Assembly (NCBI GenBank): GCA_016748015.1
Contig: JAAOMT010000261.1
Coordinates: forward strand, 157,592-221,591
Source: Geosiphon pyriformis
Taxonomy: Eukaryota; Glomeromycota; Glomeromycetes; Archaeosporales; Geosiphonaceae
Direction of reading: 5' to 3'
DNA length: 64,000 nucleotides
Below, piece by piece: positions 34,669 to 64,000 of this stretch. The translations under genes were made by a program, and so were the position numbers. A model generated the notes under the pieces. The model was not told the origin of the DNA. It saw only the letters and a list, made by a program, of their open reading frames with translations, and searched no databases. The first letter of the stretch is position 1. The number at the start of each line of letters is the position of its first letter.

Positions 34669-34674
34669 TAAAAG

Positions 34675-36259: not shown

Positions 36260-36358
36260 CCTTTAAAACTGGTAGGCGCATCTCCAAAGAGTGAGAGTGC
36301 AAGCCAACCAGAAGAAAACCTTTTTTACGCTTTTAACTTAACTAATAATAATCATGAC

Positions 36359-38957: not shown

Positions 38958-39059
38958 AGAACAAACCTCTTAAACTAAACCAACTTAATTATTAATAATT
39001 CCCCCTTTTTAACAAACATGATAATAAACTTGGACAACTACTCTGCCTTAATAAAATTT

Positions 39060-41647: not shown

Positions 41648-42950
41648 GTAGTTTGTAAGCTCCATTTCCTAAAGCTTTGTGTATGTGGAATGGACTGTTC
41701 CACTTTGGGTCAAACTTTCCACTCCACTGTTTCTTAGCTTTTGTATAATATAACAGTACCTGGTCTCCAATCTTGAATTTCATTGGTTGTTTAGATAGGT
41801 GATTGTCATGTCTTTTCTTTTGTTGTTTTTGAACATTATTAATGTTATCAGCTTGTTTTTCAATTGTTTTCTAATGTTTCTATTAACTGGTACGTTCTGT
41901 GGTACAAGGTAGCTTTAAAATTCTTTTCATTGATTGTTTCTGTTGGGTAGAACAATATTTCTCATTCAATAGGTAACATAGCTTTCCTTCCATAGACTAG
42001 TTCGAATGGTGTGAAGTGTATCGTATTTTGCTTTAGTGTTCGGTATGCAAAGAGTACTGAAAGTATGAATAAGTTCTATTCTTGTTTGTTTTCTTGACTT
42101 ATTTTTACTAGTGCTTTACACAATGTTTGGTTAAACTGTTCTACCAGTCCGTTAGTTTGTGGATATGATAATGATAAAGAATGTTTTATACCAAACTATT
42201 GGCTTAATTCTGTTAACGTATTATTGACAAAATGTATTCCTTGATTGGATAACAATTTTTTTGGACATCCATGTCGGCAAATTAGGTCTTGATGTACGAA
42301 CTCAGCTACTGTTTTGGCATTGGCCACTTGAATTGGTTTGGCTTCTGGTCATTTTGTAAGATAATCAATGGCTACAGTGATATACTGATTTCCTTTGGAT
42401 GTAATTGAGAGAAAACCAACCAAATCAATCCCAATTCTATCAAATGGATTTTCAACTGGAATGGGTCAAAGTGGTTCTGTTGATCTTGCTTCTCCTTTTC
42501 ACTGGCATGTGTCACAATTGAGTACGTATTCAAAAATGTCTTTGTACATCATTGGCCAATAGTATAAATTTAGTGTTCTTTCAAGGGTAGCATCTTTGTT
42601 AAAGTGTTTTGACATTGGATCTGAGTGCATGCTATATAGTATAGTTTCTCTTTTACTGTCCTTGATTAGTTGTTGTGGGGTGGGGTGGTTTTGGCGTTCT
42701 TGTCAATATAGTTAGTTGTCTTAAATAAAATAATTTTGGGCTTGTTTTCTTATGGTACTTTGTTCCTGTTGAAATAATATCTCCTTGAAATGTAGTGTTG
42801 ATAGGTACTAATGTAGTCATTAATAAGTGAGTGTGTCCATGGGTCTGGGATTAGGTTTGTGGCATTCTTGACAAACTGTTGGCATTGATGTTCTTGGATT
42901 CTTCTTTGTAATAGACTTTAAGTGGGAATTGTTGCAGATAAGTACTCCAT
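41648..42950 (-). pseudogene. E6 integrase, decayed
   Basis: Read on the complement: GIDLVG near 42430, LLSNQGIHF near 42250 (the second catalytic Asp is Asn), and NGLVEQFNQT near 42140. The C-terminal module FDPKWNSPFHIHK lies near 41690-41720. The zinc-finger Cys pair region is near 42500. The end of the gene continues on the other side of E7. Numerous stops. Confidence 0.8.
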
Positions 42951-44560
42951 CTTGCATATTTTCCTTCTAATTGTGGATTATTGAGTAACCAAATAAGTCT
43001 TTTGTGATCGGTATATAGGTCAAATAGTTGACTGAGGTAATGTTTTCAAGTCTGTATAGCCCAATAAATGGCAAGGCATTCCAGATCTGTTGTGCTGTAA
43101 TTTTTTTCTGCTGGGCTCATGTTGTAACTGGTGTAGGCAACTGGATGTTTTCTATTGTCTGGTCCTATCTGAGATAATACTGCTCCTAAAGCATTTTTTA
43201 AAGCATTCATAGTGACAATGAACCATTTAGTAAAATTTGGATAGATCAGGATTGGGAATGTGATCAATTGCTGTTTGAGATAGTCAAATGCTTTCTGTTG
43301 ATCTTCCTTCCACAAGTACAGTACGTATTTGGACAACAATTGATGGAGTGGTTTTGTGATGTTTGAGAAATCTTTGACAAATCGACAATAATATCCTACC
43401 AATCCTAAAAATCTTTGTAATTCTCTGAGGTTGGTTGGGGCTAGAAAATCCTTAACTTTTTGTATTTTATCTGAATCAGATTTAACTCTGTCCTTGCCGA
43501 TTACATGTCCTAGGAACTTTAACTTGGTTTTTCCAAAGAAGCACTTCTTGGGATTGAGTTTCAATCTGGCACTATGAAGACATTCAAAGACTGGTTGCAA
43601 GTGGAGCAAATGGTCATCAAATGTTTCAAAGAACACGTTTGTGTCATCTAAGTAGACTACTACTGTTTTCCAAAGAATTTTTTGTATACTATATCCATCA
43701 GGCATTGAAACATGGTAGGAGCATTACAAAGTCCAAAAAGCATTACGTTAAACTCAAAGTTTCCATCTTGAGTGGTAAACACTGTTTTTTCTTTGTCTTT
43801 GGAGTCCATTTCAACTTGCCAATAACCATTTGCTAGATCTAATGATGAAAACCATTTTTTTTTTCCTAGATTGTCCAGAATTTTTTGGATGAGGGGAGTG
43901 AAATAACTATCTCCTCACGTAATGCTATTTAATTTTCAGTAATCCATGCAAAATTGTACCTTTCTGTTTTTCTTGGTAACCAAGACTACTGGAGAGGACC
44001 AAAGACTTAACAATTCTTTGATTAGGCTGTTATCAAGCATCTATTGCATTTCTTGCTTAATTAGGTTATCACTAGATAAGAGTACACAGTAAGTTCATTG
44101 CTTAATCAGTCGAGCATCTCCCATATCAATCTGATGTTTTACAATGTCAGTGCATCCGAACTCATTTTCGCTAGCAAAGACATTGGCATGCTGATTCAGA
44201 AGGACTTTGAGTTGTATTTCTTGCAGGATACTTAAGTTTCCTAAATTCAATTTATTGATCTCTTCTGGTGTGAACAAGTAACTTTCTTTTGGCAAATTTC
44301 ATACTTGTGAGATAATATCACAGAATAAGAATAATTGTGCGAAGTCTGGAATGGATTGGAGTTTTTCAGGATTCTGAATATCTACGGATATGGAACTGAC
44401 AAGAGTCCCTTTGGAAATTTTAATAACATCTTCTGTCAGGTTGTGGATATAAATTTTGAAGTGTTTATGGGCTTTGACTGGTAGGTATAGATTAGCAATA
44501 TTAGCTAGGGAACAGATTTTGGGACTGGCTTCAAATAACAGGGCTTGATCTTGGATCTTT
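42950..44560 (-). pseudogene. E6 reverse transcriptase and RNase H
   Basis: The best frame is 43046-43705 (219 codons). It contains intact VVYLDDTNVFFETF, GHVIGKDRV and FLGLVGYYCRFVKDF, followed by the RNase H start FIVTMNALKNALGAVLSQ, where the catalytic Asp of TDAS is Asn. RT N-terminal blocks (SSPVVLVTKKNRKVQF, DLANGYWQVEMDSKDKE) lie upstream at 43720-44000. The linker before RT includes 44095-44295. Stops and shifts separate the pieces. Confidence 0.85.
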
Positions 44561-45055
44561 TGATTCACTTTGAAGATGTATTGTCAGTATGGGAGAATGG
44601 AGATAACAGTTTTGGTGTAGATAAATTCTACCTGATTACTGTCTTCCTTCGTGAAATTAACTGGTACATTTCTTCTTCTATTTGATCCAAATCCGTTGAT
44701 TCCTCGGGCAGTGAGGTCTAATTCTTCTCGGGTTGTTACTGGGGTCAATTGGGATATTTTGATTAGGGATAGGAAAATAGCTTGGGTAATCTTTTCTTGT
44801 AATTCTATTTTGTAGAGTCTGTCCAAATTGTTCTGTAGCATCATGATGATGTTCTCTATGTAACCAGCATCGATGATTTCTCCTTTTACATTGATTCCTT
44901 TCTTGGCTAGACTAGATCAAGAGGCAACTTGTACCATTGTACTAACAGAAATTTCTAATGCTATCTTAAGATCTATTTTTACAAAGGAATGTGAGGCTAT
45001 AATGATGGGTGATTGTCTGGGGTATCATAAGTTAAAACTGGCATCAGTGTTATGT
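44560..45055 (-). pseudogene. dUTPase domain of E6 pol
   Basis: On the complement, five motifs in order: I, NTDASFNL (decayed); II, MVQVAS-stop-SSLAKKGI (the Arg replaced by TGA); III, GEIIDAGY with catalytic Asp; IV, EKITQAIFLSLI; V, ARGINGFGSNRRR. The open piece 44584-44844 covers part of III to V. The location between the Cys-rich module and RT is the same as in E3, E4 and G3. Confidence 0.78.
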
Positions 45056-45249
45056 GCTCTTTTGGAGCAGATTTCTTCTTCATTGTTACTGTACTATTTT
45101 AGCTCTAGTTCTTTGAATAGGTTGGGATATGTGAGATACTATTCTGTTTTGGTATCCTCAGTTAGATCTTGAAATAACATGTCCTCAATGATTAATGCCT
45201 CTTTTTCTTTGGGCTCAGGTAGTTCAGTGATTGAAAACAGTATTTTTGG

Positions 45250-45910
45250 AGGTAGATTGAATATGAGATCACATTTGTTACAGTACTAGAAGTGATAGAG
45301 GATCAAACAGTGATTGCACAGTTTGGTATTTAAATTGGCTAACCTTTGCTCTTGTTTTTTTTGAGTTGGGGCCAATTCTTAATATTGGTTCTGAAATGCG
45401 TTTGGGTCATCCATAAAAAAATTGTCTGTGGAGTAGTCAGGTCTATTATATTTAGGTGTCTAGGGGTTATCCTTGATTTTTTGTATCTCTTTGGACATGG
45501 CATTTTCAGCTTTGGCATTTGTCATTCTCCAGATTTTGTGGTCATTGTGTGGATAACTGTTTAACCTGTTGAGTGCTTATTTCCAAGCGTCTTTAATGGG
45601 AGTTCTCTTTTGTACCCAATTGTTGATTAATATGGTGTATTAACAAGCCTTGTTGCATGTTTTTTCTCTATCAGGCACATCATTCCAAAGTCTTTCATTG
45701 GGCAGGATCTTGCCACATATAAGACATGGCGTGTTGTTTTATTTGTTTTGTCATTTTGGTTGTCCAAATCTTTCCAGTAAACAAGATTTGCAGTAGTATT
45801 TGGTGGTAGTGGGCCATTCTTTATTGTCTCCAATACATGCACCCATAGTAGATAGCTTCTTTTCACAATTGACACATATTAGTTTTGGAAGTTGGTAAAA
45901 TAAATTTCTT
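45250..45910 (-). pseudogene. Cys-rich (zinc-ribbon-like) module, E6
   Basis: Complement reads ICVNCEKKLSTMGAC, EWPTTTKYYCKSC, then PCLICGKILPNERLW and, nearer dUTPase, LCNHC and YCNKC. That is four to five CxxC pairs. It is homologous to E4 22200-22880 and E3 54110-54720. Suggests zinc binding; no known family recognised. Confidence 0.55.
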
Positions 45911-46169
45911 TGGTCTGAAGTTACATATCTTATTGATAACAATTGGGACTTTTCTTTAGCTCTGCCTTTTCTTTTTTCTTCCCAGATTGATGGTAAGGGT
46001 AGTTCAATTCGATAATCATCCACCCATAAAACCTGATAGGTCTCAATGGTTGGTGGCAGTAGTGTGTTTTCGAATTTAATAAGAGGTTCCTCGATATGTT
46101 GAGTTTTAAAGTGTCTGCATGTAACTGGAACTCGGGCATGCTGTCTGTTGAACGTAAGTTGAAGTTCTT

Positions 46170-46700
46170 GGATGTTCTAATCGAGAGTAGTGTTGGCTTT
46201 TGACAACCAATCATTTCCCATTAGAGCTTGATATTGAGTAGCTTCCATAATGAGTACTTTGATAGGGATCTGAATTCTATTAATCTCAAAGGGAAAGTTG
46301 TCAATTTCTCCTATCAGAGTTTTTGTGTTTCCATCCACTGTGATGATCTGGGCAGTAGTGGCATAGTCTACTTAGTGACCTAGTTGGTTCATGAGCTGCT
46401 TCATAATTATGCTACTGGCTCAGGATTAATTTAATGTCTATTCCTCTAACTCTGGCATCAGTATATAGGGCCATTATTGGTTTATCCTGATTGATGGCTG
46501 CTTTACTAAAAAGGCTATGGGTGTTCAAATTATTGATGTTGAAAGGAAATATGGCAGTTAGGGTGGTGTCTTTGGTAATAGTAGCTGGTGGGATATTGCT
46601 TTTTGTTTGCTTAAAAGGTTGGGAGATTTGTTCTACATTCTCCCTTTTCACAGGTGTAGATTTGTCAAAACTCTGGTCTTCCATAAGACCAAGATAGAAA
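46170..46700 (-). pseudogene. E6 protease, active site deleted
   Basis: The frame at 46412-46684 leads to IDIKLILS and then a stop: the DSG active-site segment is disrupted by a small deletion and frameshift near 46410. Downstream the conserved core (GEIDNFPFEINRIQIPIKVL; GNDWLSKANTTLD) is recognisable. Retropepsin fold by comparison with E3 and E4. Confidence 0.7.
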
Positions 46701-46978
46701 GCTTGATTCAGGTATTTAATTGGTGTTGGTCAAGATTGAGCAGAACCGTGAGAGATTGGTCGAAATGGTCCACTGTTGGTTTGCACCTGATTGTTGTTGG
46801 AATTCCTTCATTCCTGATTATAGTTTATGACTTGAGGTCTGAATGAGCTGTGAGGAGAAGTTTGATAGTGAGAAATTGCTTGTGTTATCAGTAGTGGTTG
46901 ATAATAATTCTGGGACAGTGGTTGAGTGTATGAGACTTGTTGTGCATATTGGGACAGTTGATTCTAAGGTATAGAATA

Positions 46979-48631
46979 TTAAAGTACCATGCTTTGCTGA
47001 TATCTGAGTTGCTGGTATTGGTTCCCTTGATTTTGGTCCATTATCTTCTTTCTGCAATCATGAACAATATGTTCAGGTTTCTGGCAGTAGTAACAGTTGT
47101 GGAGATCAGATCTCCAAGGTTGTTGCTGTTGCTGATAGTTCTGTTGCTGTGGGTATCTGCTGTTGTTGTTATTTTCTCTCTGTTGTAGTAGTTGATAAGT
47201 TTCTGTGCTTCCAGCTAAGAATCTCTCAATTTTTTGAGTTAATTTTTTACTTAATTGGGTTATTTTTGTGTCAATGTCAGAGGTTCTATTGATGGCTAAA
47301 TTAACGGCTTGAGTATGGTTTACTTCTTGCTCGGCTGACTCAAAATCACAAGTGAAAATGACTGCTTCTTGTAGATTTGCCAGATGGCAAGGTTGTATGG
47401 ATCTTAGAAAGCTGCTTCTTAGTCCTTTGATGAATTGATTAAGGACTTGCATGGTGGTATAATAATTTTGCTTGATGGCTAGGATTTGTTGAAAAACCTG
47501 ATTGAATCTTCCAAAATAAGTAGTTGCTGCTTTATGGTCGTTTTGTTTTATTATACTGAATTGATTTTGCAATCAGATGAATGTATTAGGGTCACAGAAG
47601 TATTGCAGAAATGTGAGTTTAAACTCTGTAAAAGAGGTAGGCTTCTCTGCAAGGCTCTGGTACCACGAATTAGCAGTTTCAGTCAGAAAAAACAGCAGTG
47701 TCTGAATTGTGTGATTGTCGTTTCAACCATTAGTAGTAATTGCTTTTTCGGTGTCCACAATCCAAGAATATGCATTATCTTCTTTACTAGAGAATTTTTC
47801 CAATTTAGCAATATCCTGGTAAGCTATGATCCAGTTAATGAATAGGATATTACTAGTTATGATTAAGGGGATTGGTGTCCGTGTATTTGAGTGTTCTCCA
47901 GATGCTAATGCTGGTTGTTTTCCTTTGTTGCTTGAACCAATAGGTTGTAGGATAGCTGTTTCTTCCATCAAGGGAAATGCTGATTCTGTTGGGTTTTGTG
48001 CTGGTGGCTGTTCCCAAGTTGACGTGTTTCCTTCTGATTGACTGGCTGTTGGGGTAAGATTTTCAAACAGTGATCCGTATTCTCCTAGTGATTTGTTCTA
48101 ACTTTGTTAATTTCAAGGATATGAGTTTTCAGAAGTTTGTGGTGTTTCCAACTGGGTTTCCAGGGGTGGGTTGAATACAATTCTACTTTGAGGTGTCTGA
48201 TGGTATGATAAAATTGTTGGGAAGAGAATCCTTGGTTTTTTGTTGACCATAGATTTGTCTTGGGCAGTTGTGGGATTATTGGATTTGTACTCGTATTCCT
48301 CCAAATCAGATTCTATTGGTTGTTGTACTTGAGAGAATTGTTTTGTCAAGTAGTGTTTAATGTCCATATCAATTATGCATAGGATTTCAGTAATTGCTTG
48401 AGTATTAGTAATTATTGAGTACCTTAGTAAGCTTTGATGAATTTGTTTTTTAAGTCTTTCTGTATTAGTTGCCCAGCCTAACAAGCAGTTGATTTTTGTG
48501 TTGATATAGTTGCAAAAATCACTTTCTGCAATGGTGGTTTCTGCTGGTATTCTTAGATCTTTTTGAAAGTATTGAAATAGTGCTCTTCCATATGAGGAGT
48601 GGTTCTTTCCTATTGTTTCAATAGTCACCAC
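46979..48631 (-). pseudogene. E6 gag with CCHC knuckle
   Basis: The frame opens at GTG (complement of 48629-48631), context ACAAAAGTGG. N-terminal piece 48113-48631 contains YGRALFQYFQKDLRIPA. The middle (47723-47971) includes AYQDIAKLEKFSSKEDNAYS. The core and knuckle piece (46979-47572) contains YFGRFNQVFQQILAI, LRSIQPCHLANLQEAV, a Gln-rich stretch and CYYCQKPEHIVHDC with all four ligands. Frameshifts separate the pieces. Confidence 0.82.
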
Positions 48632-48672
48632 TTTTGTGTATCTCTGAGATGTTCTGTTTCTGTAGATTTATA

Positions 48673-48690
48673 ACCTCACACAGAGCACCA
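48673..48690 (-). promoter_or_regulatory. Primer-binding site of E6
   Basis: The complement reads TGGTGCTCTGTGTGAGGT, two nucleotides inside the 5' LTR boundary. It matches the primer-binding sites of the other elements with one or two changes. Confidence 0.72.
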
Positions 48691-48692
48691 AA

Positions 48693-49736
48693 TATTATGG
48701 GTAAACTTGGTAGATATGAGAAATAATAATGTTTGGTGCTCTTAATTATTGATGATACATCTTCTGTGTAATTCTGTTGGCTTAGTCTTGATTATCAGTC
48801 TCTAAAAGTCTATTCCTGAATGTGAATTTACCTGTTGAGTTCTTTTGTTATAAGACACAGAGTTTGTCTTTCATTGATTACAACATTTTCCATAAATGTG
48901 AGTAGTCGTTAGGGTCTGGTGTTGTCTTTTCGCCCTTCTGGTAAGCTGACAAGATAATATTAATATCTAAAACTTAGAAAGAGCTTTTTTCTTTTACCAG
49001 GCTATCACGAAGTCTATTCCCAGATAGTCAATTTTACTATGTTGCCACTCTACAAAAAAATAAGAAAGAAAAAGAAAAAGAAAAGAAAAGAAAAGAAAAG
49101 AAAGAAAAGATAATTTAGTATCATCAATCACTGTGATCAAGAGTGATTGGTCCAAATTGTTGATCATTCAAGGCAGTTATGCTAAGAGCATTTGTCCTAG
49201 AACAAAAATATGAGACAAGAGTTAATTCATGTAAATTCCACAAAGTTTGAGAACATAAATTTGTGACTCTGATTTCTTTAATAATTGGTTTATTTCAAAA
49301 GATGAAATAGGGAGGATAATAAATGATAAAGGGGTATGGATATTTGATTCTTGTCTAGAGATTCATATCTATCTGTCTGTCTGTCTTTTCTAACTTCTAC
49401 AACTACTTGCTTTTATACATTCTTTTGGTTTTACAAGATTGCTTTCAATTGTTTCACTATCACTAGCTATTGCTTTGTTATTTCTGTTATTGCTTCATTT
49501 TTCTATATTATCACTAGTTATCCTATGTTATAACACATTATCTGACATTATTACATGTTATTCTGTGTTATCTTGCATTATAACACGTTATCCTACATTA
49601 TTACATGCTATTCTGTGTTATCCTACATTATAACATATTATCTTATATTATAATGCATTATCTAATGTTATTGCACTATTTTGTGTTATGTCACATTTTT
49701 TTATAACTTTGGATTGGTTTTTCTACTCAGGTAACA
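48693..49736 (-). repeat. 5' LTR of E6 (1044 bp)
   Basis: On the minus strand it begins TGTTACCTGAGTAGA and ends CATAATA. U3 short repeats lie at 49510-49690. The AAAAGAAAAG-rich stretch at 49055-49110 is the T-rich tract of the other strand. Hairpin B is at 49125-49149. Confidence 0.9.
49125..49149 (-). promoter_or_regulatory. LTR hairpin B (covarying arms) in E6
   Basis: In the transcribed strand: CAATCACT, loop CTTGATCAC, AGTGATTG, eight perfect pairs. It is the third arm variant after CAATAGCT/AGCTATTG (E2) and CAATTGCT/AGCAATTG (E4), while the loop hardly changes. Confidence 0.65.
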
Positions 49737-49740: not shown

Positions 49741-50476
49741 TAGTCTCTGGGAAATAACTGATTTTGAGAAAGAGAAAAGCAGTGATCAAGAAATTAATAA
49801 ACAAAATCCAATTCCAGAAAACCCAGAAATTCAAGCTTTAATCATTTCAACTTAGCAAAAACAGAATAATCTAAACCCTGCTCTTATTGTTCTCCAAAAC
49901 TTATCTCCAGTAATTAAGATCAACTCATTATCTATTCTACCAATTGTCAAACAACAACAGCAGTAGCCACAACTACCACCTTAGCAACAACTATAACAGC
50001 AACCTCAACCTCAACCACAACAACAACTACTGTTAGCACCAATAGCATACACACCCATTACCAAAATTAAGAAATTTACTGGTAAGAAGAACAACACCCA
50101 AGTATGGTTCAATGATGTAGAAAAAGCCATCATAGCTAATAGATAGAATAATGACAAAGCCCTTTAAGTGATCCCTTATTTTCTCCAAAATACTACTGAT
50201 TCATGATACCAGAGTTTAACTGCCAAACCACAAACTTTCCAAGAATTCAAACTGGAATTTGTGAGATATTTCAGTAACAATAATAGCATTAACCACTTGG
50301 CAAATACCTTTACTACCATCAAGCAAAGAGAAAGTAAAACAGTCACTACATACTTAGAATGCTTCTATAAAAATCTGCACCAAATTTAAGCCATCAATGC
50401 TAACTATTTTACAGTGGTCCAGATCCTGAATCAGTTTATCCATAGACTATGCAGTAGTATTTTTTAACACATACAT
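49741..50476 (+). pseudogene. E3 gag, segment 3 (core)
   Basis: It resumes after E6 with SLWEITDFEKEKSS, matching SLWEVMESEKKEN of E2. A Gln-rich stretch (about 49940-50030) follows, then the gag core: KFTGKKNNTQVWFNDVEKAI, FVRYFSNNNSINHLANTF, YLECFYKNLHQI. Stops at former Gln and Trp positions. Cut at 50476 by solo LTR E9. Confidence 0.78.
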
Positions 50477-51235
50477 TGTTACTTATAGAATATAAGAATT
50501 AAATATTAGTATATAAATTAGCCAATCAGAATAAAATGTAGTAAAAGTGGAATTTCAGGATTCCTTTCAGAGAAATTGCAGGATTCCAGGAATTTCAGGA
50601 TTCTTATACAAGAAATTGCAGGATTTCAGAATTCCAGAATTTCTTTCAAAGAAATTGCAGAATTTCAAGAATTCCAGAATTCCTGGCTAGAAAATTAAAG
50701 AATTCAAGAAATCTCATACAATAAAATTTATGTATATATAGCAGTAGTATCAGAAGCTAGAAAATTAATCAAGAAGATTCAAAATTAGTAAGACTCTTAG
50801 AGTTAATTAAACTTACAGGTCATAATTATTAAATACTTCTTCTTTTAAAAATAATTGTTATTAACCAAAATGAAATTATATCAATAAAATATCTCTTCAA
50901 TTCTTCAAATCCATGTTATTGTTATTTTTTGAGAATCTACTCACTTTTTTATTTATCAACACTTCATGTTAATAAAATTCAACACTTAAGTATACTAGAA
51001 CAATAGCTCTTGATTATGGCTATTGATAGGATACTAACATTTATTGTCTTAACTTATTTTTTTATTTTCTTTTATTTTCTTTTGTTATTTTTTTTTGTTT
51101 TATTAATTGATTAAGGATTAAAAAGCATTGAGTTATTAACATTAAAGATAGTCTGATAAAAGACCCCAAAGAAAGGATATAGTATTGAGAATTTAAGGAT
51201 AGCTTACCAAAAGGGCATCTCTGCCAAATTACTGG

Positions 51236-52230
51236 TGTTACTGGAGGTTTTTGGTCTCTTTTCTTGAATGTTGTTAATGTTAATTTGCTGTGAATTCACA
51301 TTTCCAGGAAGTAGTTGGACCTCCAGTAACTGAATTTATCTTTAAATTATTTCCTATAATTTGAACTGCTGGGCTTATGTGTGAAATGGCCAATTCTGTG
51401 CCAGTTACTTTGTATAGTTATGTTGTAGTAAACATTAACTCTTTCTCAGAAATTGCTCATCTGAAAGCTTACTAAAAATGTGTAGTTACTTTGCTGTAAA
51501 AGTCAACTCTTCTATAGAAATCTCGTCTGTAGGCTACCTTAATAATTGTAATAAGAAAATAAAAGAAAAATAAAAGAAATGTAAAAGAAATAGAATTCTG
51601 TCAAGGAAAACGTTTTCTATTCAGGCCTGGAGTCACTAACAGTTTACTGAAATTGGTAGCTAATCAATTTCAAAACATTAGTTGGGTTTTTGGAGATTTT
51701 TCAAGTGCAATATTTAAAGAAATTGGTTTTTTTGAATTATTTGATATTTTATTTCTTTTTGTATATGTAGGAATGGTTCTAAGTAATAAATCTAAAGTAA
51801 GATACATTTTCTTGAAGAGAAAAGCTCTTCTTTTATACAACTTGTTGTAGTACTAGTCTATGAACTTGCACTTTTTCTCTTTGCTCAACTTTCGGCAAAC
51901 TAAAGATACATTTTGATGAACTACAAGTTATTTCACTGAACTATTAATTAATTTGGGTGAACTATTCATAATTTCGGTGAATTTTTTATAAATTTCGGCG
52001 AATTTCTGTAAATTTCGGCGAATTTTAGAATGTTACAAAGTTCAGAGTATTGTGTAATTTAATCATCCTACTTTCTGTTATACTAATTAGATTATTTTAA
52101 TTGAATTGTAATATGTGATAATTGATTAAATAATAAATGATAATTTGAAATAATATTAATATACTAATTAATTATAGGAATTATAAAAGTTATTTCATGC
52201 TAATTAATAGCTAAAATTCTACTGGTAACA
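51236..52230 (-). mobile_element. E8: solo LTR of the G family (995 bp)
   Basis: It begins TGTTACTGGAGG and ends CTACTGGTAACA on the plus strand, the same layout as the LTRs of minus-strand G1 and G3, so it is oriented minus. An exact 4-bp duplication CTGG flanks it (51232-51235, 52231-52234). The 65-codon frame at 51653-51850 is inside the LTR and not a gene. Confidence 0.9.
51893..52030 (-). repeat. U3 repeat array with TTCGGCGAA palindromes
   Basis: Six to seven degenerate units of about 18-22 bp occur, each with a variant of the palindrome TTCGGCGAA (TTCGGTGAA, TTCGGCAAA, TTTGATGAA). The last copies, near 51995 and 52015, are perfect. The array lies upstream of the minus-strand TATA-like TATAAAAG near 51833. 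The array also occurs, more decayed, in G1 (8765-8845) and G3 (58785-58865). It could be a set of activator binding sites. Confidence 0.6.
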
Positions 52231-52440
52231 CTGGCCACCACACTGAGAAAGAAATTCAACAGAATTGTGATTCTAGAAGGCTACTGAGACATTATTGAAT
52301 CTCTGTCTATTATACAAAGAACTCAACTAAAACCTTCAGATAACCAAAATCTTCAGAAACCAACATTATTAAATCAATTGAACACCAAGTTATGGATTTG
52401 TTATTTGCTTTAAAACTCCAAATAATTACTTGTAACAATG

Positions 52441-53000
52441 TCCATTACATCTAGCTAATCTTCAAGCCATTGTCACTCATGTCAAAGACTTTGAATTAGC
52501 CAAACTTAAAGCCAGTCATGCCCAAGCTGTTAATCTAGTAATGAATGGATCATTTGAATTGGATTTTAAGTTGAAACAATTCAGTAATTCCATTAATCAA
52601 AAATTAGAGGGATACTTAGCTAGTAATTAGACAATTTATCAACCTTCACAACAATGCAATAATCAAGAAAATGCGAATTATTTCCAAAATTAGCTGCATT
52701 TATTACTATTGACCAATTAGCAATGGCAATAGGAGACATGTGTTTGCCACTATTGTGGTAAACAAGGACATTTGAGAATTGATTGCAGGTTAAGAATAGA
52801 TAATCAATGATTGGAAAATCAATATCAAAACCCTAATTACCAGTTTCAAACTCCAAGATATCAACCCAACTTAGAACTATATCAACCAAATTACCAGTCA
52901 GTGACACAGCTGCCAATTTATTAACCACTCATTTATCAAACTCTGGCACCAGTTATTTATCAACTGCAGCCACAAATAATATATCAATCTCAACAAATCC
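52441..53000 (+). pseudogene. E3 gag, segment 4 (C-terminus, CCHC)
   Basis: It resumes the gag core after E9 (HLANLQAIVTHVKDFELAKL) and reaches the zinc knuckle CHYCGKQGHLRIDC near 52744-52788, with all ligands present. A Gln/Tyr/Pro-rich tail follows. Several stops. Confidence 0.78.
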
Positions 53001-53026
53001 CAACACTGTCACCAAATTCAGCTCAG

Positions 53027-53690
53027 ATGACATCAGAAAATCTCAGATCTAGAGTTACTCAAAACTGGAGATTGGTGATAGTTGTCTACCAACTGATTCC
53101 TAGCTCAGCAAATCAGCCATTAGAATTATGCCAATGGAATTCAGAAACTGAATACACCCAAAATTCGAATTCCCAATACTATTTAAGTTTCTTAGTTACT
53201 CCAGAAAATGCTTCACCCCACAACCAAAAAACCAACCAAAAGCAGTTACTTACCAGCAATATTCTATCTATAACCAGCACCAAAGATGAAACTCTTGTCA
53301 CCATATTTTCTTTTGAATTCGAAGAAACTGCCTTAGTTCTATTATTTAGTAGAGCTATCTTTGACAACAGACCCATTACTGCAATATATACTGATGTCAA
53401 AGTTAATGGCCATTTCATCAAACTGATCTTAGACAGTGGATTAGCTGGCAGCATAATTACCTGACAACTCATGGACCAATTAGGTCACCGAGTTGATCAC
53501 ACTACCAGTGCTAAAATAATTACAATTAATAGAGCCACCAAAACTCCAATTAATAAAATTGATGACTTTCCATTTGAAATTAACAGTATTATTGCCTCCA
53601 TCAAAGTTTTGGTAATAGAAGCAACACAATACCAAACACTAGTTGGTAACAATTGGTTGTCCAAAACCAATACAGTGCTTGATTGAACCA
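53027..53690 (+). pseudogene. E3 protease
   Basis: Two adjoining open pieces (53027-53464 and 53471-53686) are in the same frame, separated by a TGA at 53462. The active-site motif is intact: LILDSGLAGSIIT (about 53427-53463). The flap/core region reads INKIDDFPFEINSIIASIKV and GNNWLSKTNTVLD. This is the best-preserved protease of the dUTPase-bearing family in the window. Confidence 0.82.
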
Positions 53691-54109
53691 CACAAAAGCT
53701 CCAACTCAGTCAGAATGGTTAGCACACACATGTACCAGCCATATACAGCCACTTTCAGACAAACATGACAACAACACCACTCATAAAATTCAAAAAAAAA
53801 AAGAAAAACCTATCTGAAAAGTCTCTTAAGTCTTGTGGGCCAATGATAAGCACAACAAACTACTGTCTATATCCTTATGAGATGACAAAGGAAAAAAAAA
53901 ACAAAAAGAGAAACTTACCTGGAATGACAATCAAGAATTATGAATTGACAATAATCAAAATAAGCTGACACCAATTTGGAAAGGGAAAAAAACCAAAAAA
54001 GAAAAAAAAAAAGAAAAAAAAGAAGAGCCAGCACCAGCAACCACTACAACTTATACCCCATATACTTATACTTTACCACAACCATCTAACTATTACTGAC
54101 TGAAACTGG

Positions 54110-54720
54110 TGTGCATTGATTATAACAAGAAATTGTTATTAATGAGTGTATACTATGGCGACAATAAAGAATACCCAATGGCAACAAAATTTTATTGTCA
54201 TTTTTGTATTTTCAAACAGTTTGAATGACTCAAAAGACAAAAAAAATGAGATAACAAATTTTGTTTTGTCTGTGAAACCATTTTGCCTAATAAAGAAATG
54301 TGGAATGACATTCCTGGACATAGAAAAATGTGCCAATATACTATCCTAATAAATGATTGAGTACAAAAAAAAATTCCAATTAACAATGCATAGAAAAGAG
54401 CATTGTAATAATTAGAAAGATATCCTTATAATGAACATAAAATCTGGAAAATAGTAAGTGCAAAAGTAAAAGATACCATTTCCAGTAAACTACTAGAAAG
54501 TAAAAACAACTCATTATCCCTTTCTGAACCTGAATATGTCCCAACTTTTGATGTCTTTGGCAACATTAAGGATGATCCTGAAGAATTTTACAAGCACTAT
54601 TAATGCCTGGCACTAACAAGAAAAGAACAAGAACAGTGTTTGAAAAAAATAAACACCTAATTATGTGAACACTATTTGATTTCATGTGACTTTCAATATT
54701 GTAATAAGTGTGATTTCATC
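54110..54720 (+). pseudogene. Cys-rich (zinc-ribbon-like) module, E3
   Basis: Read across the frame: YCHFC near 54198, FCFVCETILPNKEMWNDIPG near 54255-54320, then DVFGNIKDDPEEFYKHY and YCNKCDFIYNLLP near 54697. The spacers DVFGNIKDDP and YCNKC are nearly identical to E4. Stops interrupt it. The frames at 54146-54349 and 54676-54963 are partial readings. Confidence 0.55.
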
Positions 54721-54979
54721 TATAATCTATTACCATGCATAATCTACACAATTCCAGAGGAAGAAGAACTAATTAGCAGCTGTGTATTGGACTCAGAATT
54801 ACCATTCAATTCTGATTCAAACTTCAACAATAATGACAACAAAAATAATGATTCCAGTTCTATTCAAAACAACAATAAAAATAACAGCAATTTAAACTTC
54901 GATTCAAATCCAAAACAATATATTGCACTTCTTGATCTTACCAAAAAGCAAGAACTTAAATAGTTCAGCAATAATAATG

Positions 54980-55400
54980 AAGGTATCATGCCAAAATACA
55001 CATATAATACTGATACAGAATTTGATCTGAGATATCTGAGAAAAGATGCCATTAAATTAAAACCATATTCACACACCTGCATTAATCTGAAAATAGCATT
55101 GAAGATTTCAGCAACAACAATGGTTCAATTAGCATCTAAGAATAATTTAGTGAAAAAAAAATTATCATCAGAGAAAGAATAATTGACATATAATATGTGA
55201 GAAATATCATTACAATGCTATAGAATGACTTAGAAAAGACCTATATCATAAAACCAAATGAAAAGATAGCATAGACAATATTTCTGTTTCTGATTAAAAT
55301 AACTCAATTAGTATTAGTGAGAAACAGAGAAGAATTAGGGATTACAGTTAGAGAAGTACAAAGATTCAGATCCATGGGTAGAATAAACATACCAATTAAT
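54980..55400 (+). pseudogene. dUTPase domain of E3 pol, decayed
   Basis: Motif I is TEFDLRY (from DAGYDLRY), II VQLASKNNLVKKK, III RIIDI with a stop before YVRNIITML, IV EKIA, V VQRFRSMGR. An Asn/Ser-rich linker (54780-54920) precedes it. It is recognisable by order and spacing relative to G3 and E4. The C-terminal tail (55542-55772; IELTNLYIPVKSPKHIKIPI) is shared with E4 and E6 and leads into RT. Confidence 0.68.
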
Positions 55401-55799
55401 ATAATAGAAGAAAAAGTTATTGACAAGAGAGAAATTATCTTTAATTGTTAATCAATTTCCATTCCACCATATAACCAGTACATATTAGTCATAAAAAGGT
55501 GAGTAAAAGATCAAGCTCAGATTTTTGAAACAGAAACTACTATGTATAAATCAGGAAAAATTGAACTTACCAATCTTTACATACCAGTCAAAAGCCCAAA
55601 ACATATTAAAATCCCCATCTACAATACAATAGAAGATGTTATAAAGATACCAAAAGAAACTACCATCAGATATTTAAGCACTAAAGTTGAAAAACAACCA
55701 CCAAACACTATTCCAGACTTTCTACAACTATGTAAATATGTGGATATTACATCACAAACAATATACAGATGAAAAGAATATTATCTGCTTTAACCAAAA

Positions 55800-56570
55800 C
55801 AATTAGAACAGATAAACTTGGGAAATTTAGATTCACTACAACATATGCAACTTAAAATATTACTGAAAAATTTCAACAACATCTTTGTCAGTAAGAACAA
55901 ATTTGACAAAACAGACATTATCCAACATCAGATAAAAACTAAAGATGCAATGCCAATTAAGCAAAGAGCATACCGAGTACCACCAGCCAGTCATAAAATC
56001 ATCTGACAAAAAATCAATCAAATGCTAAACAATAGGCTAATTTAGCCATCAATGAGTTCATGGTTCTCAACTTTAGACTTAGACAATGGGTACTGGCAAG
56101 TAGCCATGAAACCAAAAGATAAAAAGAAAATGGCTTTTACAATCCAAAAAAGAAATTTTGAGTTTGAAGTAATGCCATTTGGCTTGATGAATATTCTAGC
56201 AATATTTCAACAGCTTATGGAAATTGTCTATATCAAATTGCTATGAAAATTTATAGTTATATATCTAAATAACATTAATGTGTTCTCCAAAACATTTGAT
56301 GATTATTTGCACCATCTTTAACAAGTATTTGAAAGACTAAGAAGAACCAAATTAAAATTAAATAGAAACAAGTGTTTCTTTGAGAAAACTGAACTCAAGT
56401 TTTTGGGGCATGTTGTGAACAAAGATGGTATCAAAACAAATCCAAATAAGATTGAGATTATTAAAAACTTTCTAGTGCCAAATAATCTCATAGAATTAAA
56501 AGCATTCTTGGGATTTGCTGAATACTATTGCTCTTTATCAAAAACTTTTCTAAAATAGCTCAACCACTAC
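55800..56570 (+). pseudogene. E3 reverse transcriptase, decayed
   Basis: Visible blocks: VFVSKNKFDKTDIIQHQIKT, STLDLDNGYWQVAMKPKDKK, FEFEVMPFGLMN and LKFLGHVVNKDGI. The catalytic box reads YLNN near 56264; both Asp are Asn. The segment equivalent to the SSPVVLVxKK block is deleted between 56040 and 56055. Confidence 0.8.
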
Positions 56571-56599
56571 ACCAACTCCAAACAAAGAACACCAAATAC

Positions 56600-57060
56600 A
56601 ATAAACTGAAACCCAACAAAAAGTCTTTAACATACTAAAAAGAAAATTAATTCAAGCCCCAGTATTAATTTATCCAATTCACAGCAAATTATTCATTATT
56701 ACTACTGATGCATCTGGTCAAGCATTAAAAGCTGTACTATCTCAAAAAAGACCAGATGGACAAGAACACCCAGTAGCTATGCCAGTAGAAACTTAAGTCC
56801 AGCTGAAAAAAACTATGGAATTCCAGCATTAAAACATTTAGCAATCTATTGGGCAGTCATAAAATAGAAAAAATACTTAAATCAAAAGTTTGACATGTAC
56901 ACTAATCATAAAAAACTGATTTCAATTCAGAAACAAAAATTTGGAGATGATTACCATGCTAGATAGAAAATAGAACTTTTACTATTTAATTATATAGTAC
57001 ATTACAAAAAAGAAAAAAAAAATGAAAATGCCAACAGCTTGTTATAAATGAAACAAATCT
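56600..57060 (+). pseudogene. E3 RNase H, decayed
   Basis: FIITTDASGQALKAVLSQ keeps the first catalytic Asp. HPVAMPVET is a shifted remnant of the AYASR segment, followed by a Glu-containing IPALKHLAIYWAV region. YTNHKKLIS has Asn for the third Asp. Several stops and shifts. Confidence 0.72.
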
Positions 57061-57279
57061 AAAAATATTTCAACCCCAAAAAATATAACAAAAAATAAAT
57101 ATACAAAAATATCAACAATTCTAACACTATATTAATACCCAGCAGTTTAAGGAAAAATTATCTCCAAAAAAACAAAGTCATATCAAACAACAATCCAAAT
57201 ACTTTATTACTTACTAAAATATACTTTATCAGAAAAACAGAAAGAATCCAGATCAACCATCCAGAGTAATTACAGAACC

Positions 57280-58098
57280 AAAGAAAGAAACAATATTATT
57301 TAAAATGCATTCAAACCCAACAGCAAGACATTTTTATAAAAAAGCAATCATAAAAAGAACCAAAAAAAGATACTATTGGCCATCCATATATCTAGACATT
57401 ATCTAATACATTCAAAATTGTGATGCTTGTCAGAAAAGAGGAGGAACAAGATCTGGTAAACCATTAAGACCAATCAAAGTAGGACAACTATTTGATTACA
57501 TGAGAATTGACTTAGTCAAACTATTAATCATAACCAGCAGAGACAACAGATACATTGCAGTAGTCATGGATTATTTTACTAAATGGCCAGAAGCAAAAGC
57601 CATTTAAAGAACAAATATAGAATCCATTGCCGAATTCATTTATCAAGATTTGATTTGTCAACACAGATGTTTAAAAGAATTACTATCTGACCAAGGAACT
57701 CACTTTGTGAATAAAACATTAGCAGAATTAAGTTAAAAATTTGAAATAAAAAGACCATTATTATTACCATATCATCTACAAACCAACAAATTAGTCGAAA
57801 AATTTAATAGAATATTGTGTAAAGCAATTGCCAAAATCAGCCAAAAAAATTAAGATGAATAGAATTTGTTTATATCATCAGTATTATTTACTTATTAGAC
57901 AATAAAACAAAACACTACACAAGCAACACTATTTGAATTAGTATATGATAAAACAGCAATATTACTAGTTGAGATAAAAGTCAACACATATCTAACAGAA
58001 CCAATAACCAAAGACAATCTGCAAGAAATGTTGTTGAGAAAAATATATGACTTAATGGAAACATTAGAAAACCAATGGCAAAAAGCAGCTGATAACAT
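57280..58098 (+). pseudogene. E3 integrase, truncated by G3
   Basis: HHCC: MHSNPTARHFY and CDACQ. DDE: RIDLVKLL, LLSDQGTHF and NKLVEKFNRI. Continues to the ENQWQKAADNI segment, then is cut by the LTR of G3 at 58099. Stops at former Trp or Gln codons. Confidence 0.82.
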
Positions 58099-59067
58099 TG
58101 TTACTGAAGGTTTTTGGTCTCTTTTTTTGAATGTTGTTAATGCTGATTTGCTGTAAATTCACATTCTCAAGAAGTAGTTGGACCTCCAGTAACTGAATTT
58201 ATCTTTAAATTATCTCCTATAATTTAAACTACTGGGCTTATAAGTGGAATGGCCAGTTCCTTGCTAGTTACTTTATGTAATTACATTATAGTAAACATCA
58301 ACTCTTTCTCAGGAATTGCTCGTCTGGAAGCTTACTAAAAATGTGTAGTTACTTTGCTGTAAAAGTCAACTCTTCTACAGGAATCTTGTCTGTAGATTAC
58401 TCTAATAATTATAATAAGAAAATAAAAGAAAAATAAAAAAAATGTAAAAGAAATAGAATTTTATTAAGGGAAACGTTTTCTATTCAGGCCTGGAGTCACT
58501 AACAGTTTATTGAAATTGGTAGCTAATCAATTTCAAAACGTTAGTTGTGTTGAGAGAATTTCAAGTGTAATAATTTAAGAATTTGGTTTTCAAATATTTA
58601 ATTTTTATTTGATATTTGTAAAAAGTGATTTGTTTTAATTAAGATATCTAAAGTAAGATACTATGGTAAGATATGAGAAAGATATATTTTCTTGAAGAGA
58701 GAAGCTTTTCTTTTATACAACTTGTTGTAGTACTAGTTTTTGAACTTGCACTTTTCTCTTTTCTACAATTTGGGTGAACTAAAGATACATTTTGGCAAAT
58801 TACAAGTTATTTCTACGAATTATTGATTATTTCGGCAATTTTTCCATTAATTTCGACGAATTTTGACTATATTAAATGGTTTAGGGTATTGTGTAATTTA
58901 ATTATCTTAATTTCTATAATACAAATCAAGTTATTAATTGAGTAATAATATTTGATAATTTGGCTAATTAATAAGTGATAATCGAAATGATAATAATATG
59001 TTACTTAATAATAAGAATTATGAAGATAATTTCATGCTAATTAATAGCTAAAATTCCACTGGTAACA
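58099..59067 (-). repeat. 3' LTR of G3 (969 bp)
   Basis: It begins TGTTACTGAAGG and ends CCACTGGTAACA on the plus strand. Homologous to 8089-9044 and 51236-52230. On the minus strand TATAAAAG lies near 58712. The purine stretch GAGAAGGAGATTA (complement, just inside the element) is its polypurine tract. Confidence 0.9.
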
Positions 59068-59914: not shown

Positions 59915-61330
59915 TTAAATGTTCAAGTTTGGTTGTTGTTTTATTATAACTATTGGTTCTAAATTTCAGGGAATATCTTCAGGATTAACTAAAGGGAAAT
60001 GTGTACTAATTTGTGGAATTAATGGTTCAGAATTGTTTCTGGAATAATAGTGTTTCAATCTATCTCTATGTACAACTTTTATTAGTACTTTGTCATCAAG
60101 TCTTAACTTGTATGATTCATTGCCTAAAATTTCATGAATATAAAATGGTCTATTCTATTTATGTTCAAATTTTCCACTCCATTGTTTTTCAGCCTTAATT
60201 CTGTGTAAGAGAACTTTATTTCCAACCTTAAATTTGTTGGTAATTGGTGGCAGTTTGTTGTTATGTCTTTTTTTTTGTAGGGCTTAGAAGTGTTTAATAT
60301 GAGTGGCTGCTATGTGACTCTTTTCTTCCAATGTGCTAAGAAGAGTGTAGGCTCTTCTTTGGAGTGTTTCTTGGAAGTTTTTTTCATTGATTGGTTGCAC
60401 TAGATATGTTTCTACTGTGAAATTAATTGGTAATGTTGCTGTTCTTTCATAAGTAAAATCAAATGGTGTGTGTTTTGTAGTATCTTGTTTTAGTGTTCTG
60501 TATGCTAGTAACACTAATAGAATAAAGATATCTCATTTCTGTTCAAAATCTGTTGAGACTTTGGCTAAAGATTCACACAATGTTCTGTTAAAACATTCTA
60601 CAAGTCCATTTGTCTGAGGGTGATAAGGTGATGATAAAGATTTTTTGACATTGAATCATTCACAAATTTCTTGTATCAAGTTGTTCATAAAATGTGTTCC
60701 TTGATCAGATAAAAGTTCAATTGGGCATCCATGTCTACAAATAATGTCTTTATAGATGAAATTTGCTACTGATTTTGCATCTGCTCTTTGAATGGCTTTA
60801 GCTTCAGGCCATTTGGTAAGATAATCTACTGCAACTGCAATATAATGATTTTCTTGGGTTGTAATAAGTAATGGTCTAACTAGATCAATTCCAACTTTGT
60901 CAAAAAGTTGTCCAACTTTGATTGGATTTAAAGATTCTGTGAGGCAAATTCCTTTTCTTCTTTGACAACTATCACAAGATTTTACATATTGTCAAATGTC
61001 TTTTTGCATGTGAGACCAAAAATAATGTTCAAGAGTTCTTTAAATTGTTCCATATCTTCCCAAGTGTGCTAAAGACGGATCTGTGTGCATGTTGTATAAA
61101 ATTGTTTTTTTTTCCTTTTCTTGTACTAATCTGAGTGATTGATTTGAATTTTTGCAATTTTTATAATAGATTTTGTTGTGGTGTATAAAATATTGTTTTG
61201 ATTGGTGTTGTAAATGATGTTTTTTACTTGGAGACCAATTTTCTGGCATGGTAAGAGTCTCCAAATAGTTTTTAAGATTGCTGTAGTTTCTGGGATCCAT
61301 TGTTGTTTGGTTATTTTGTTGGTAGATTGG
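59915..61330 (-). pseudogene. G3 integrase
   Basis: The pol frame ends at TAA (complement of 59915-59917) after EPIVIIKQQPNLNI. HHCC: MHTDPSLAHLGR near 61075, Cys pair near 60970. DDE: DLVRPLL-type segment near 60880, LLSDQGTHFMNNLIQ near 60690, and a degraded NGLVECFNRT-type segment near 60600. The open pieces are 61040-61300 and 60284-60514 (LLAYRTLKQDTTKHTPFDF). A few stops. Confidence 0.82.
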
Positions 61331-61830
61331 TAAGTTATGGTGAAATTGTTGTTGGTGTTAATCTTGTCTCATTCTTGAAAGGCTATCAACATTGGTGTGT
61401 AGTTTTCCTGGTTTGTGGTGTACAATGTATCTGTAGTCTGTTAGGAAGTCATTCCATCAAGATTGTTTGGCACTTTGTTCAGTTTTCTTTTTATTGAGCC
61501 ATTTGAGACTAATATTGTTAGTTATGATGTCAAATTCTTTTCCATTTTTCAGATATTGTTGAAAATGTTTAAGAGCCCAAATGACTGCAGCAGCTTCCAA
61601 TTCAGTTGAGCCATATTTGAGTTCTGTTGGCTTGAGTGTTCTACTGGTATAGACAATGACTTGTTCCTGGCCATTTTTATCCAATTGTAATAGAATGGCA
61701 CCAAATGCTATGTATAAAGCATCAGTGGCTAGTTGAAATTGTTTGTTGAAGTCTGGATAAGCAAGAACTGGGGCTGTTGTCAATTTTGTTTTGAGAGTTT
61801 CAAAAGCTTTTTGTTGTTCTTCAGTTCATT
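61330..61830 (-). pseudogene. G3 RNase H domain
   Basis: The open piece 61457-61783 has FQLATDALYIAFGAILLQ with the first Asp, and STELEAAAVIWALKHF with Glu. IITNNISLKWL carries Asn in place of the third Asp. Confidence 0.82.
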
Positions 61831-62640
61831 GATATGACATGTTTTTGTTGGTAAGATAGTTAAGTGGTTTGGCAATTTCTGAAAATTCTTTTATGAATTT
61901 TCTATAATAAGAGGCTAATCCTACAAATCCTTATAGCTCTGTGGTATTTTTGGAAGTTTGAAAGTTTTTGACAGTGCTGATTGTTCCAGGGTTTGGTTTG
62001 ACTCCATCTTTGCTAACAATGTGTTCAAGAAAAATTAAGCTTGTTTTTCCAAAATGACATTTTTTAATGTTTAACTTTAATCCTGCTTTCCATAATCATT
62101 GAAAAACTTCTCGCAGATAGATAAGATGAGCTTTAAAGCTTGGTGAGTATACATCAGTGTTATCAAGATAGAAAACTACTGATTGCCATAAGAGTTCTTC
62201 ATATACAACATTCATAAGTCATTGAAATATTGCTGGTGCATTACAGAGTTCAAAAAACATAATATTGAATTCATAGTTCCCTTTTTGGGTGGTAAATACT
62301 GTTTTAGGTCTATCTTTTGGGTCCATTTCGACTTGCCAATATCCACTTTCCAAGTCTAAAGTTGAGAAGAACTTGGCTTTTTCTAGAGCATCTAGCATGT
62401 TATCAATTCTTGGAAGAGGGTAGACATCTCCAATTGTGATGCTATTCAGTTGTTTGTAATCAACACAGAATCTGATTTTTCCGTTTTTTTTTTTAACTAA
62501 AACTACTGATAAAGCCTATGGACTTCTTGATGGTTGAATTAATCTGTTATTGAGCATTTTTTGAATTTTTTTTCTAATAAATTGGTGGCTGGCAGGTGGA
62601 ACTCAATAGGTTTGTTGTCATTTTGGTGAAGCATCTCCTG
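61830..62640 (-). pseudogene. G3 reverse transcriptase
   Basis: Complement reads VVFYLDNTDVYS near 62150 (YLDD with second Asp changed to Asn), FNIMFFELCNAPAIF near 62240, DLESGYWQVEMDPKDRPK near 62330, and KIRFCVDYKQLNSITIGDVY near 62440-62480. Stops and frameshifts are fewer than in E3. Confidence 0.82.
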
Positions 62641-63022
62641 TGTGGATCTGATGTTGAACAATATCAGTTTTTCCTAAGTTATTGTTGTCTTTTGCAAATA
62701 TACCTGCAAATTCAGCTATCAATTGTTTCAATTGTCTTTGTTGTTAGAATTCTAAGAGACCCATGTTAATTCTAGTGAGTTTTTCTTTTAACAGGTGGTA
62801 GTTTTTAGTAATAAGGGTGATGTTTAGATTTGAAAGTAATGTATGTCTTATAATTTCGATGAAATTAAAGACAATTTAAGGATTTTCATCTTGAAAAATA
62901 TTGCTGTGTATGATTCCAATTTTTAATTTATTTAATAAGACAATAGAGTAATTATTGGGGTTGTAGAATATAACTTGAAATTTTTTCATTTCTTTGGGAA
63001 TATAAACATTTGGGATTGAGAT
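62640..63022 (-). pseudogene. Pol linker between dUTPase and RT of G3
   Basis: The region is equivalent to E4 23450-23900 and E6 44100-44560, a conserved stretch without a recognised fold. It ends with the QHQIHTGDAS motif that precedes RT near 62640. Stops are present. Confidence 0.55.
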
Positions 63023-63179
63023 TTAATGCTTCAAACAGATTTGTTCATTGGATTCAAAGATTTGTTGGGTAGTGGTGGGTTTTAAGCAAATGTAAATTTC
63101 GTGATGTTCTCCAAAAAGTGAAATGGTAATTGGTTGGAGAAATTGAAGAATCTGGTGAGATTTATTCTGTGCATTGAGA

Positions 63180-63600
63180 GCTATGTTTACTGGTACTGTA
63201 AATCGTCCAGTTGAACCAAAACCTTGAGTTCCTCTTTCACTTTTTCCCAATTGTTCTCTGTTTTTTACTGATTGTAAACCCAAAATGTTGATTAAGGGTA
63301 GGTAAATTGCTTGGGCAATTCTCTCAGCATGTTCAATTCTGAATGGTTTGTCTGTTTTATTTTGTAACATGATGATAATGTCTCCAGTATATTCTGCATC
63401 TATGACTCTTCCTCTAATATTGATTCTTTTGCTTGCCAATGATAATCTGGATGCAATTTGAACTATTGCTCCAGGTAGAATTTCAAGAGCAATTTTAAGA
63501 TTGATTTTTGTCAAAAACTTTGGTTGGAGAACCAAAGTGTCTTTGCCAGAATATCTGAGGTCATATCCTGCATCAATTTCGTGGGCTTTTTCTGGTTTTA
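63180..63600 (-). pseudogene. dUTPase domain of G3 pol, best preserved copy
   Basis: All five motifs of the trimeric dUTPase family are clear on the complement: I, HEIDAGYDLRY (near 63570); II, VQIASRLSLASKRI; III, RVIDAEYTGDI with the catalytic Asp and the Tyr that selects against ribose; IV, AERIAQAIYLPL; V, RGTQGFGSTGR (63190-63225). The domain is about 140 residues, typical for one dUTPase subunit. The frame runs on to about 63023. It lies in the pol frame upstream of RT. A role in keeping uracil out of the cDNA is inferred from the family. Confidence 0.88.
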
Positions 63601-64000
63601 TTCCTTGCCTATTGTTGTTAAAGTATTGAGTTGTATAGCAGGCTGGTTTTCAGTAAGATAAATTAGTGTTGTTGTAATTTTATTCTTTGTTTTAGGTTTT
63701 CCAAATTCGATTTCTTTTTGGTCATTTTCACTGGACAGAAGAATGCTAAGAGCATAGCATTCTGGACACCATTTGTCATCACAAAGCATGATGCATTCTT
63801 TGCATAATTGAATATTCATTCACTCTAATCATTGAATTTGAGCTTTTTGGGTTGGATAAGTGTGGCTTGCAATTTGGTAGTATGTTTCTACTTCATCTTC
63901 ATAGTTGAGTCTAGCTAATTCTATTGTATACTCAATATATTCAGCTTTTTTTTTTTTTTTTACATCTTCTTGGGTGGCTCTATTGATCAATGCTATTGCT
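63598..64000 (-). pseudogene. End of Cys-rich module, G3 (continues outside window)
   Basis: The frame 63598-63819 has CKECIMLCDDKWCPEC, the equivalent of LCNHC...YCNKC in E6. It is followed by an acidic linker toward dUTPase. Upstream sequence to 64000 belongs to the same element but is too short to interpret. Confidence 0.55.

Follow-up and report, generated by a model that had tools for sequence, protein, structure and literature searches.

A dUTPase within pol, beside a conserved Cys-rich module, in an old Ty3/gypsy retrotransposon lineage of Geosiphon pyriformis

Does a dUTPase-like sequence near one end of a 64,000-nucleotide stretch of the Geosiphon pyriformis (Glomeromycotina) genome belong to a retrotransposon, and if so, where did it come from and what might it do? 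The stretch, here called the window, is positions 157592-221591 of its contig in an assembly of 124.7 Mb. Its GC content is 31%, and it holds many nested, decayed retroelements. The reading favored here, to which as a whole we give a probability of roughly 0.75, is that these are decayed copies of an old Ty3/gypsy lineage with a pol-embedded dUTPase that would have served to clear dUTP.

A sequence-only reading of the window had placed a trimeric-type dUTPase on the minus strand of an element designated G3, and a profile search confirms this. PF00692 matches the minus-strand open reading frame (ORF) 63023-63649 (P0001) with an E value of 5.3e-20 and 71.9 bits, against a curated cut-off of 22, and the match covers profile positions 6-129 of 129. 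In the PDB, 68 distinct sequences match P0001 at E <= 0.001, and the G3 domain has the dUTPase fold. Chance is excluded as the cause of the match because the profile scores are high. The domain occupies 63206..63595 (residues 19-148 of P0001); element mapping assigns 63185-63628 to the dUTPase, colinear with pol. On the same strand lie a Cys-rich module (63604..63999, in another reading frame, 63% identical by tblastn to the copy at locus L038), a linker region preceding the reverse transcriptase (RT) (62684..63199), the RT itself, with stops (61934..62563), RNase H (61460..61738), an integrase in two pieces (60158..61318), and a 3' long terminal repeat (LTR) of the G type (58099..59067). The G-type LTR has the ends TGTTAC...GTAACA (TG...CA type). 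The 5' end of G3 is outside the window.

The arrangement recurs in three further elements, E3, E4 and E6. As the sequence-only reading had it, the dUTPase in all four is flanked by a Cys-rich stretch and RT and is colinear with pol, and E3, E4 and E6 have the gag-protease (PR)-RT-RNase H-integrase order of Ty3/gypsy elements (Metaviridae). E3 (18358..31642, plus strand; LTRs 18358-19418 and 30598-31642) is split by a nested insertion at 26113-29198. Its coding part (20291..26114) comprises gag, PR (21553-21978), Cys-rich module (22213-22746), a broken dUTPase (23026..23457), pre-RT linker, RT (24045-24728), RNase H and integrase. E4 (32016..49736, minus strand; LTRs 48701-49736 and 32016-33042) is split by a dUTPase-less element at 34046-41647, and its broken dUTPase is at 44659..45090. 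The E6 coding part (50057..58099, plus strand) has gag, PR (53363-53746), Cys-rich module (54103-54612), a dUTPase in two frames (54952..55382), pre-RT linker, RT (56055-56531), RNase H and integrase. The E and G groups were said to have different LTRs; this holds for E3 and E4, whose LTR ends differ from the G type, while the LTRs of E6 were not identified.

Genome-wide there are 3181 first-look candidates and at least 150 dUTPase matches above the cut-off. The position of the dUTPase in pol was checked in individual copies (E3, E4, E6, G3, L024 and L026) and in protein models. L024 is a single open frame of 1307 aa with PR, Cys module, dUTPase, pre-RT linker, RT and RNase H. L026 is a single open frame of 1433 aa with gag, PR, Cys module and dUTPase; it holds PF19259, PF03732 and PF13975, which are Ty3-type capsid and retroviral-type protease domains. 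NCBI gene models in this genome are often short or permuted, so that the dUTPase stretches might be stray gene fragments or fusions of gene models with no place in pol, a prospect made negligible by the same order in the raw DNA of the four window elements and by the single open frames. The same observations contradict the case of a host gene fragment not colinear with pol, which the sequence-only reading had itself raised.

The Cys-rich module directly precedes the dUTPase in 21 of 21 proteins (>75% of the Cys query, >80% of the dUTPase query, no RT); such domain counts exclude 29 partial sequences among the 196 proteins that matched a dUTPase query. The module is about 200-240 residues long and has 13 conserved cysteines in the pattern C-x2-C, C-x2-C, C-x2-C, C-x3-C, C-x2-C-x3-C-x4-C-x2-C, each retained in 80% (16/20) to 100% (23/23) of the residue-bearing rows among 29 aligned. 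The lineage thus consists of large, old Ty3/gypsy LTR retrotransposons of the order gag-PR-Cys-rich module-dUTPase-pre-RT linker-RT-RNase H-integrase. Outside Geosiphon, P0132 (ENA) has the identical architecture and is 48% identical over 90% of the searched region. Members of the P0160 group (JGI/ENA and others) have PR-dUTPase-RT, with neither the Cys module nor the pre-RT linker matched.

No known family was found convincingly for the Cys module, the best E values being 0.033 in Pfam (a piece of P0132) and 0.015 in PHROGs. In an AlphaFold model of P0132 the cysteine stretches mostly have a predicted local distance difference test score (pLDDT) below 60 and a helical block at 424-480 has about 72-84; no fold is claimed. 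The idea that the pre-RT linker contains another barrel resembling dUTPase was rejected, with profile-profile probabilities of 0.1 for dUTPase and 0.0 for protease on a scale of 100. A pattern search of IMG/VR gave no match for P0132 and nine pattern matches for P0160, none of them a relative. No chromodomain was matched after the integrase in the three L026 and seven L038 pieces scanned, where the frames are partly broken. Two other ENA proteins have different arrangements. P0169 is a Ty3/gypsy polyprotein in which several Cys/His clusters, not matched by the Geosiphon module, separate PR from dUTPase, and P0198 has a Ty1/copia-type RT (RVT_2) followed by a dUTPase domain (118.9 bits) that is not part of the Ty3/gypsy dUTPase clade.

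Across the lineage, an alignment of 157 Geosiphon rows shows motifs I to V, including the catalytic motif III residues Asp and Tyr. The rows include G3 and two hand-translated frames (P0122 and P0123); the remainder are mostly NCBI gene models, whose introns may jump over stops. Motif II of the lineage is SRSSLA, versus PRSGLA in cellular enzymes. The statement that G3 keeps every motif does not hold: its motif II is SRLSLA (at the altered position 119 of 157 rows have Ser and 22 of 157 have Leu), and the frame changes before the dUTPase, from -2 in the Cys module to -1. Stops interrupt the dUTPase domains of E3, E4 and E6, and in E4 one stop is in motif II and DL has become NL. Kimura two-parameter (K2P) distances between paired LTRs are 0.166 for E3 and 0.141 for E4, versus 0.021, 0.040 and 0.065 for L026, L038 and L035, copies elsewhere in the genome. 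With LTR divergence high and domains damaged, E3 and E4 are by these measures old, and G3 is probably inactive.

A domain with an altered motif II, and with single key residues lost in many copies, might have been kept for a non-catalytic role, either structural within Pol or as a surface that binds proteins; one lentivirus has an inactive protein related to dUTPase that is described as such a precedent (PMC4531489). We regard this as unlikely. All 8 outside rows that belong to the main clade retain the motif III Asp and Tyr and the motif IV Gln. Of the 157 Geosiphon rows, 152 have the Tyr and 156 the Gln, the others showing gaps. PRSGLA is also absent from the corresponding site of the feline immunodeficiency virus (FIV) enzyme, a dUTPase of solved structure.

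Ratios of nonsynonymous to synonymous differences per site (pN/pS) were taken from segments in which one piece covered >=85% of the query. At pS 0.4-0.6 the ratio is 0.24 for dUTPase (30 pairs), 0.23 for PR (35), 0.24 for the Cys module (22) and 0.27 for RT (4). At pS 0.2-0.4 it is 0.32 (11 pairs), 0.28 (6), 0.52 (30) and 0.25 (9), respectively. Below pS 0.2 it is 0.42-0.57 over six domains, as expected of decaying copies. These codon counts, on a biased set of loci, suggest that the dUTPase is constrained at a level like that of PR, and they point weakly to constraint on the Cys module.

Where the domain came from was approached with the host's own enzyme in hand. A cellular dUTPase gene lies near C262:402300-403100 (locus 402300-403300), with five exons and four introns, read by eye without transcript evidence. 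It was located at one of the two sites of a second motif pattern; a first pattern gave four sites, none a dUTPase, and a third gave nothing. A protein search with an algal query (3so2) did not have the host gene among its 150 scored matches, all <=42% identical. The host motifs are PRSGLA, GVIDADYRG and RGASGFGSTG.

For the dUTPase tree, 37 representatives of the 157 rows at 78% identity plus G3 made up 38 Geosiphon rows. In the resulting 57-row tree a single clade (support 100/99) unites all 38 of these with 8 of the 10 outside rows, apart from seven reference rows labelled CELL (100/95). The latter include the chlorella-virus enzyme (3c2t) and 3so2 (Chlorella), and their fungi are only Geosiphon and 3p48 (yeast). 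P0132 and the P0160 group fall inside the main clade, P0169 and P0198 outside. The P0160 group stands apart from the others in the RT tree just as in the dUTPase tree (98/94 and 88/92). Because there is a single dUTPase clade and the RT groups agree, the trees indicate that this lineage acquired the domain once, long ago and before the E and G groups diverged, in agreement with the sequence-only reading. Several captures by different element families, which Novikova et al. 2010 argued for their own elements (PMC2864245) and which the outlying P0169 and P0198 would fit, are improbable here, since all Geosiphon subfamilies in the tree share that clade with P0132 and the P0160 group.

That the elements took up the Geosiphon cellular gene at a late date is more improbable still. 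The elements are 24-34% identical to it (35 of 38 element rows matched), versus 71% between the host and Arabidopsis enzymes, and the host introns are absent from the dUTPases of G3 and L024; in favor of such capture are the shared trimeric type and the shared genome. The approximately unbiased (AU) test rejects a grouping that joins the Geosiphon elements to the host gene and excludes the outside elements (p-AU 2.35e-06), a result that rules out late capture only. In a thinned tree, from which FIV, P0169 and P0198 were removed and in which the Geosiphon rows were cut to 13, the element stem is 1.41 changes per column long, and its placement next to the yeast-type and chlorella-virus enzymes is weakly supported (84/76). 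There, elements plus host gene, corresponding to an ancient capture that predates the divergence of the outside elements, are not rejected (p-AU 0.135). Elements, Geosiphon, 3so2 and 3p48 together are rejected (p 0.020), a set without clear meaning because 3so2 is algal. Host capture nested within fungal dUTPases, as the sequence-only reading had envisaged, finds no support, the identity to the host gene being low, the stem long and weakly placed, and two fungal cellular enzymes too few to judge such nesting.

In the old pol-embedded lineage favored here, PR would free the dUTPase or leave it inside the particle. The enzyme is predicted to act as a homotrimer, converting dUTP to dUMP and pyrophosphate; in dUTPases generally the attacking water is described as held by the motif III Asp (PMC3905902). 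Less uracil would then be taken up while RT copies element RNA. The benefit may be greatest where host dUTPase is low, as in resting spores and non-dividing nuclei, by analogy with lentiviral dUTPases, which are reported to be critical chiefly when cells are not dividing and contain little of the host enzyme (PMC4531489). The Cys-rich module may bind zinc and nucleic acid and so hold the enzyme at the template. The betaretroviral nucleocapsid is a zinc domain. The module could be an analogue of the nucleocapsid in the nucleocapsid-dUTPase (NC-dUTPase), the form in which the Mason-Pfizer virus enzyme is made (PMC4531489, PMC3905902). More tentatively, the Cys module, dUTPase and pre-RT linker may be one functional cassette, a zinc-dependent nucleic-acid guide holding a dUTP-cleaning trimer beside RT, evolved separately from the betaretroviral solution. 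If so, a very numerous lineage of an early-branching fungus would hold a second, separate solution like the betaretroviral fusion.

Several points weigh against the favored reading. The host carries its own dUTPase gene, so the need for a second dUTPase is not evident, and a dUTPase-less Ty3/gypsy element in the window (36260-38575) indicates that some such elements manage without. All eight checked key residues are intact in just 44 of 157 Geosiphon rows. Above pS 0.6, where differences are saturated, pN/pS is 0.45 for dUTPase versus 0.30 for RT and 0.36 for PR; for the Cys module it is 0.54, which together with its value at pS 0.2-0.4 indicates weaker constraint. Loci were selected because their dUTPase scored high or their frames were long, and the pairs share ancestry, so that counts are non-independent and constraint on the dUTPase is suggested, not proven.

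Nine LTR pairs (18358-19418/30598-31642, 48701-49736/32016-33042, 34046-34668/41004-41647 and six from L026, L032-L035 and L038) differ by 486 transitions versus 28 transversions, and in them shared-context CpG sites have changed in 48% of cases versus 14-20% in other contexts. The ratio of observed to expected CpG is 0.06-0.21 over the five elements measured in the window, 0.18 in L038, 0.45 in L026, 0.35 in 2001-8000 (which holds a non-LTR element) and 0.89 in a 1-kb host-gene stretch. Of the 288 listed residues that differ from the majority at 13 key dUTPase positions, 274 are of a kind that a C-to-T or G-to-A change could produce, judged by residue, not codon. This near-transition-only divergence, most marked at CpG yet present in every context, looks like decay by cytosine methylation or a process like repeat-induced point mutation (RIP). 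According to a Rhizophagus paper, RIP signatures went undetected in both Gigaspora margarita and Mucoromycotina (PMC8647823), so the Geosiphon pattern merits its own study.

Other features of the window include a remnant of Cys module and dUTPase in a nested short element (27631..28206, plus strand; dUTPase part 28114-28206). The dUTPase-less element nested in E4 (34046-41647; LTRs 34046-34668/41004-41647) has a 4-bp target duplication, GTAG, and, between PR and RT, a short Cys cluster of its own. A solo G-type LTR (51236-52230) lies inside E6 with a 4-bp duplication, CTGG, and part of a second G-type element (8077-11584) is 84.5% identical to the 3' part of G3. A GC-richer non-LTR retroelement at 2585-7748 retains endonuclease, RT and RNase H pieces. 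Open frames of 250 aa downstream of integrase, at 40282-41034 in the window and 826-1578 in L026, matched no Pfam family.

Fungal elements bearing a dUTPase were reportedly treated by Novikova and Blinov in 2008, and Tmt1 is said to be another, both being cited by Novikova et al. 2010. The sequence-only reading took the position of the dUTPase to be unusual for Ty3/gypsy elements, which proves mistaken: PosPlaTy3-5 of Postia, also a Ty3/gypsy element of a fungus, has it between PR and RT, and earlier Phanerochaete and Tuber elements are cited in the same account (PMC2864245). The passages on which this comparison by description rests mention no Cys-rich module between PR and dUTPase (PMC2864245). 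The position is thus already described for related elements and is the one expected of chromovirus-type fungal dUTPase elements, and the Geosiphon lineage shares it with the addition of a conserved, unclassified Cys-rich neighbor. Juno, Vesta and TelKA of bdelloid rotifers are likewise described with a dUTPase between PR and RT, but Juno has an extra zinc knuckle after the dUTPase (PMC5408684), whereas the Geosiphon module is before it. The betaretroviral NC-dUTPase of the Mason-Pfizer type resembles the Geosiphon arrangement in having a nucleic-acid-binding domain fused upstream; there, however, it is the gag nucleocapsid, joined by frameshift ahead of PR (PMC4531489, PMC3905902), and in Geosiphon it is a separate module after PR, with the dUTPase in the same frame. 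Non-primate lentiviral dUTPases have the same fold but are located between RT and integrase (PMC4531489); FIV is 37% identical to the P0132 model over 103 columns, and against the P0160 dUTPase it shows no gap between motifs II and III. In Entomophthora muscae, dUTPase domains are reported as enriched together with retroviral protease domains (PMC11105155). No earlier report of such elements in Glomeromycotina (Geosiphon, Rhizophagus) was found among the open-access papers searched, the subscription literature, including the Geosiphon genome paper, being outside the scope. The dUTPase-bearing Ty3/gypsy elements are here extended to Glomeromycotina, and the trees suggest one acquisition kept through deep divergence of the lineage. 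Elements with and without the domain in one genome offer a natural contrast for what is gained from an own dUTPase in a coenocytic fungus, and the Cys module provides a concrete parallel to the retroviral nucleocapsid-dUTPase fusion.
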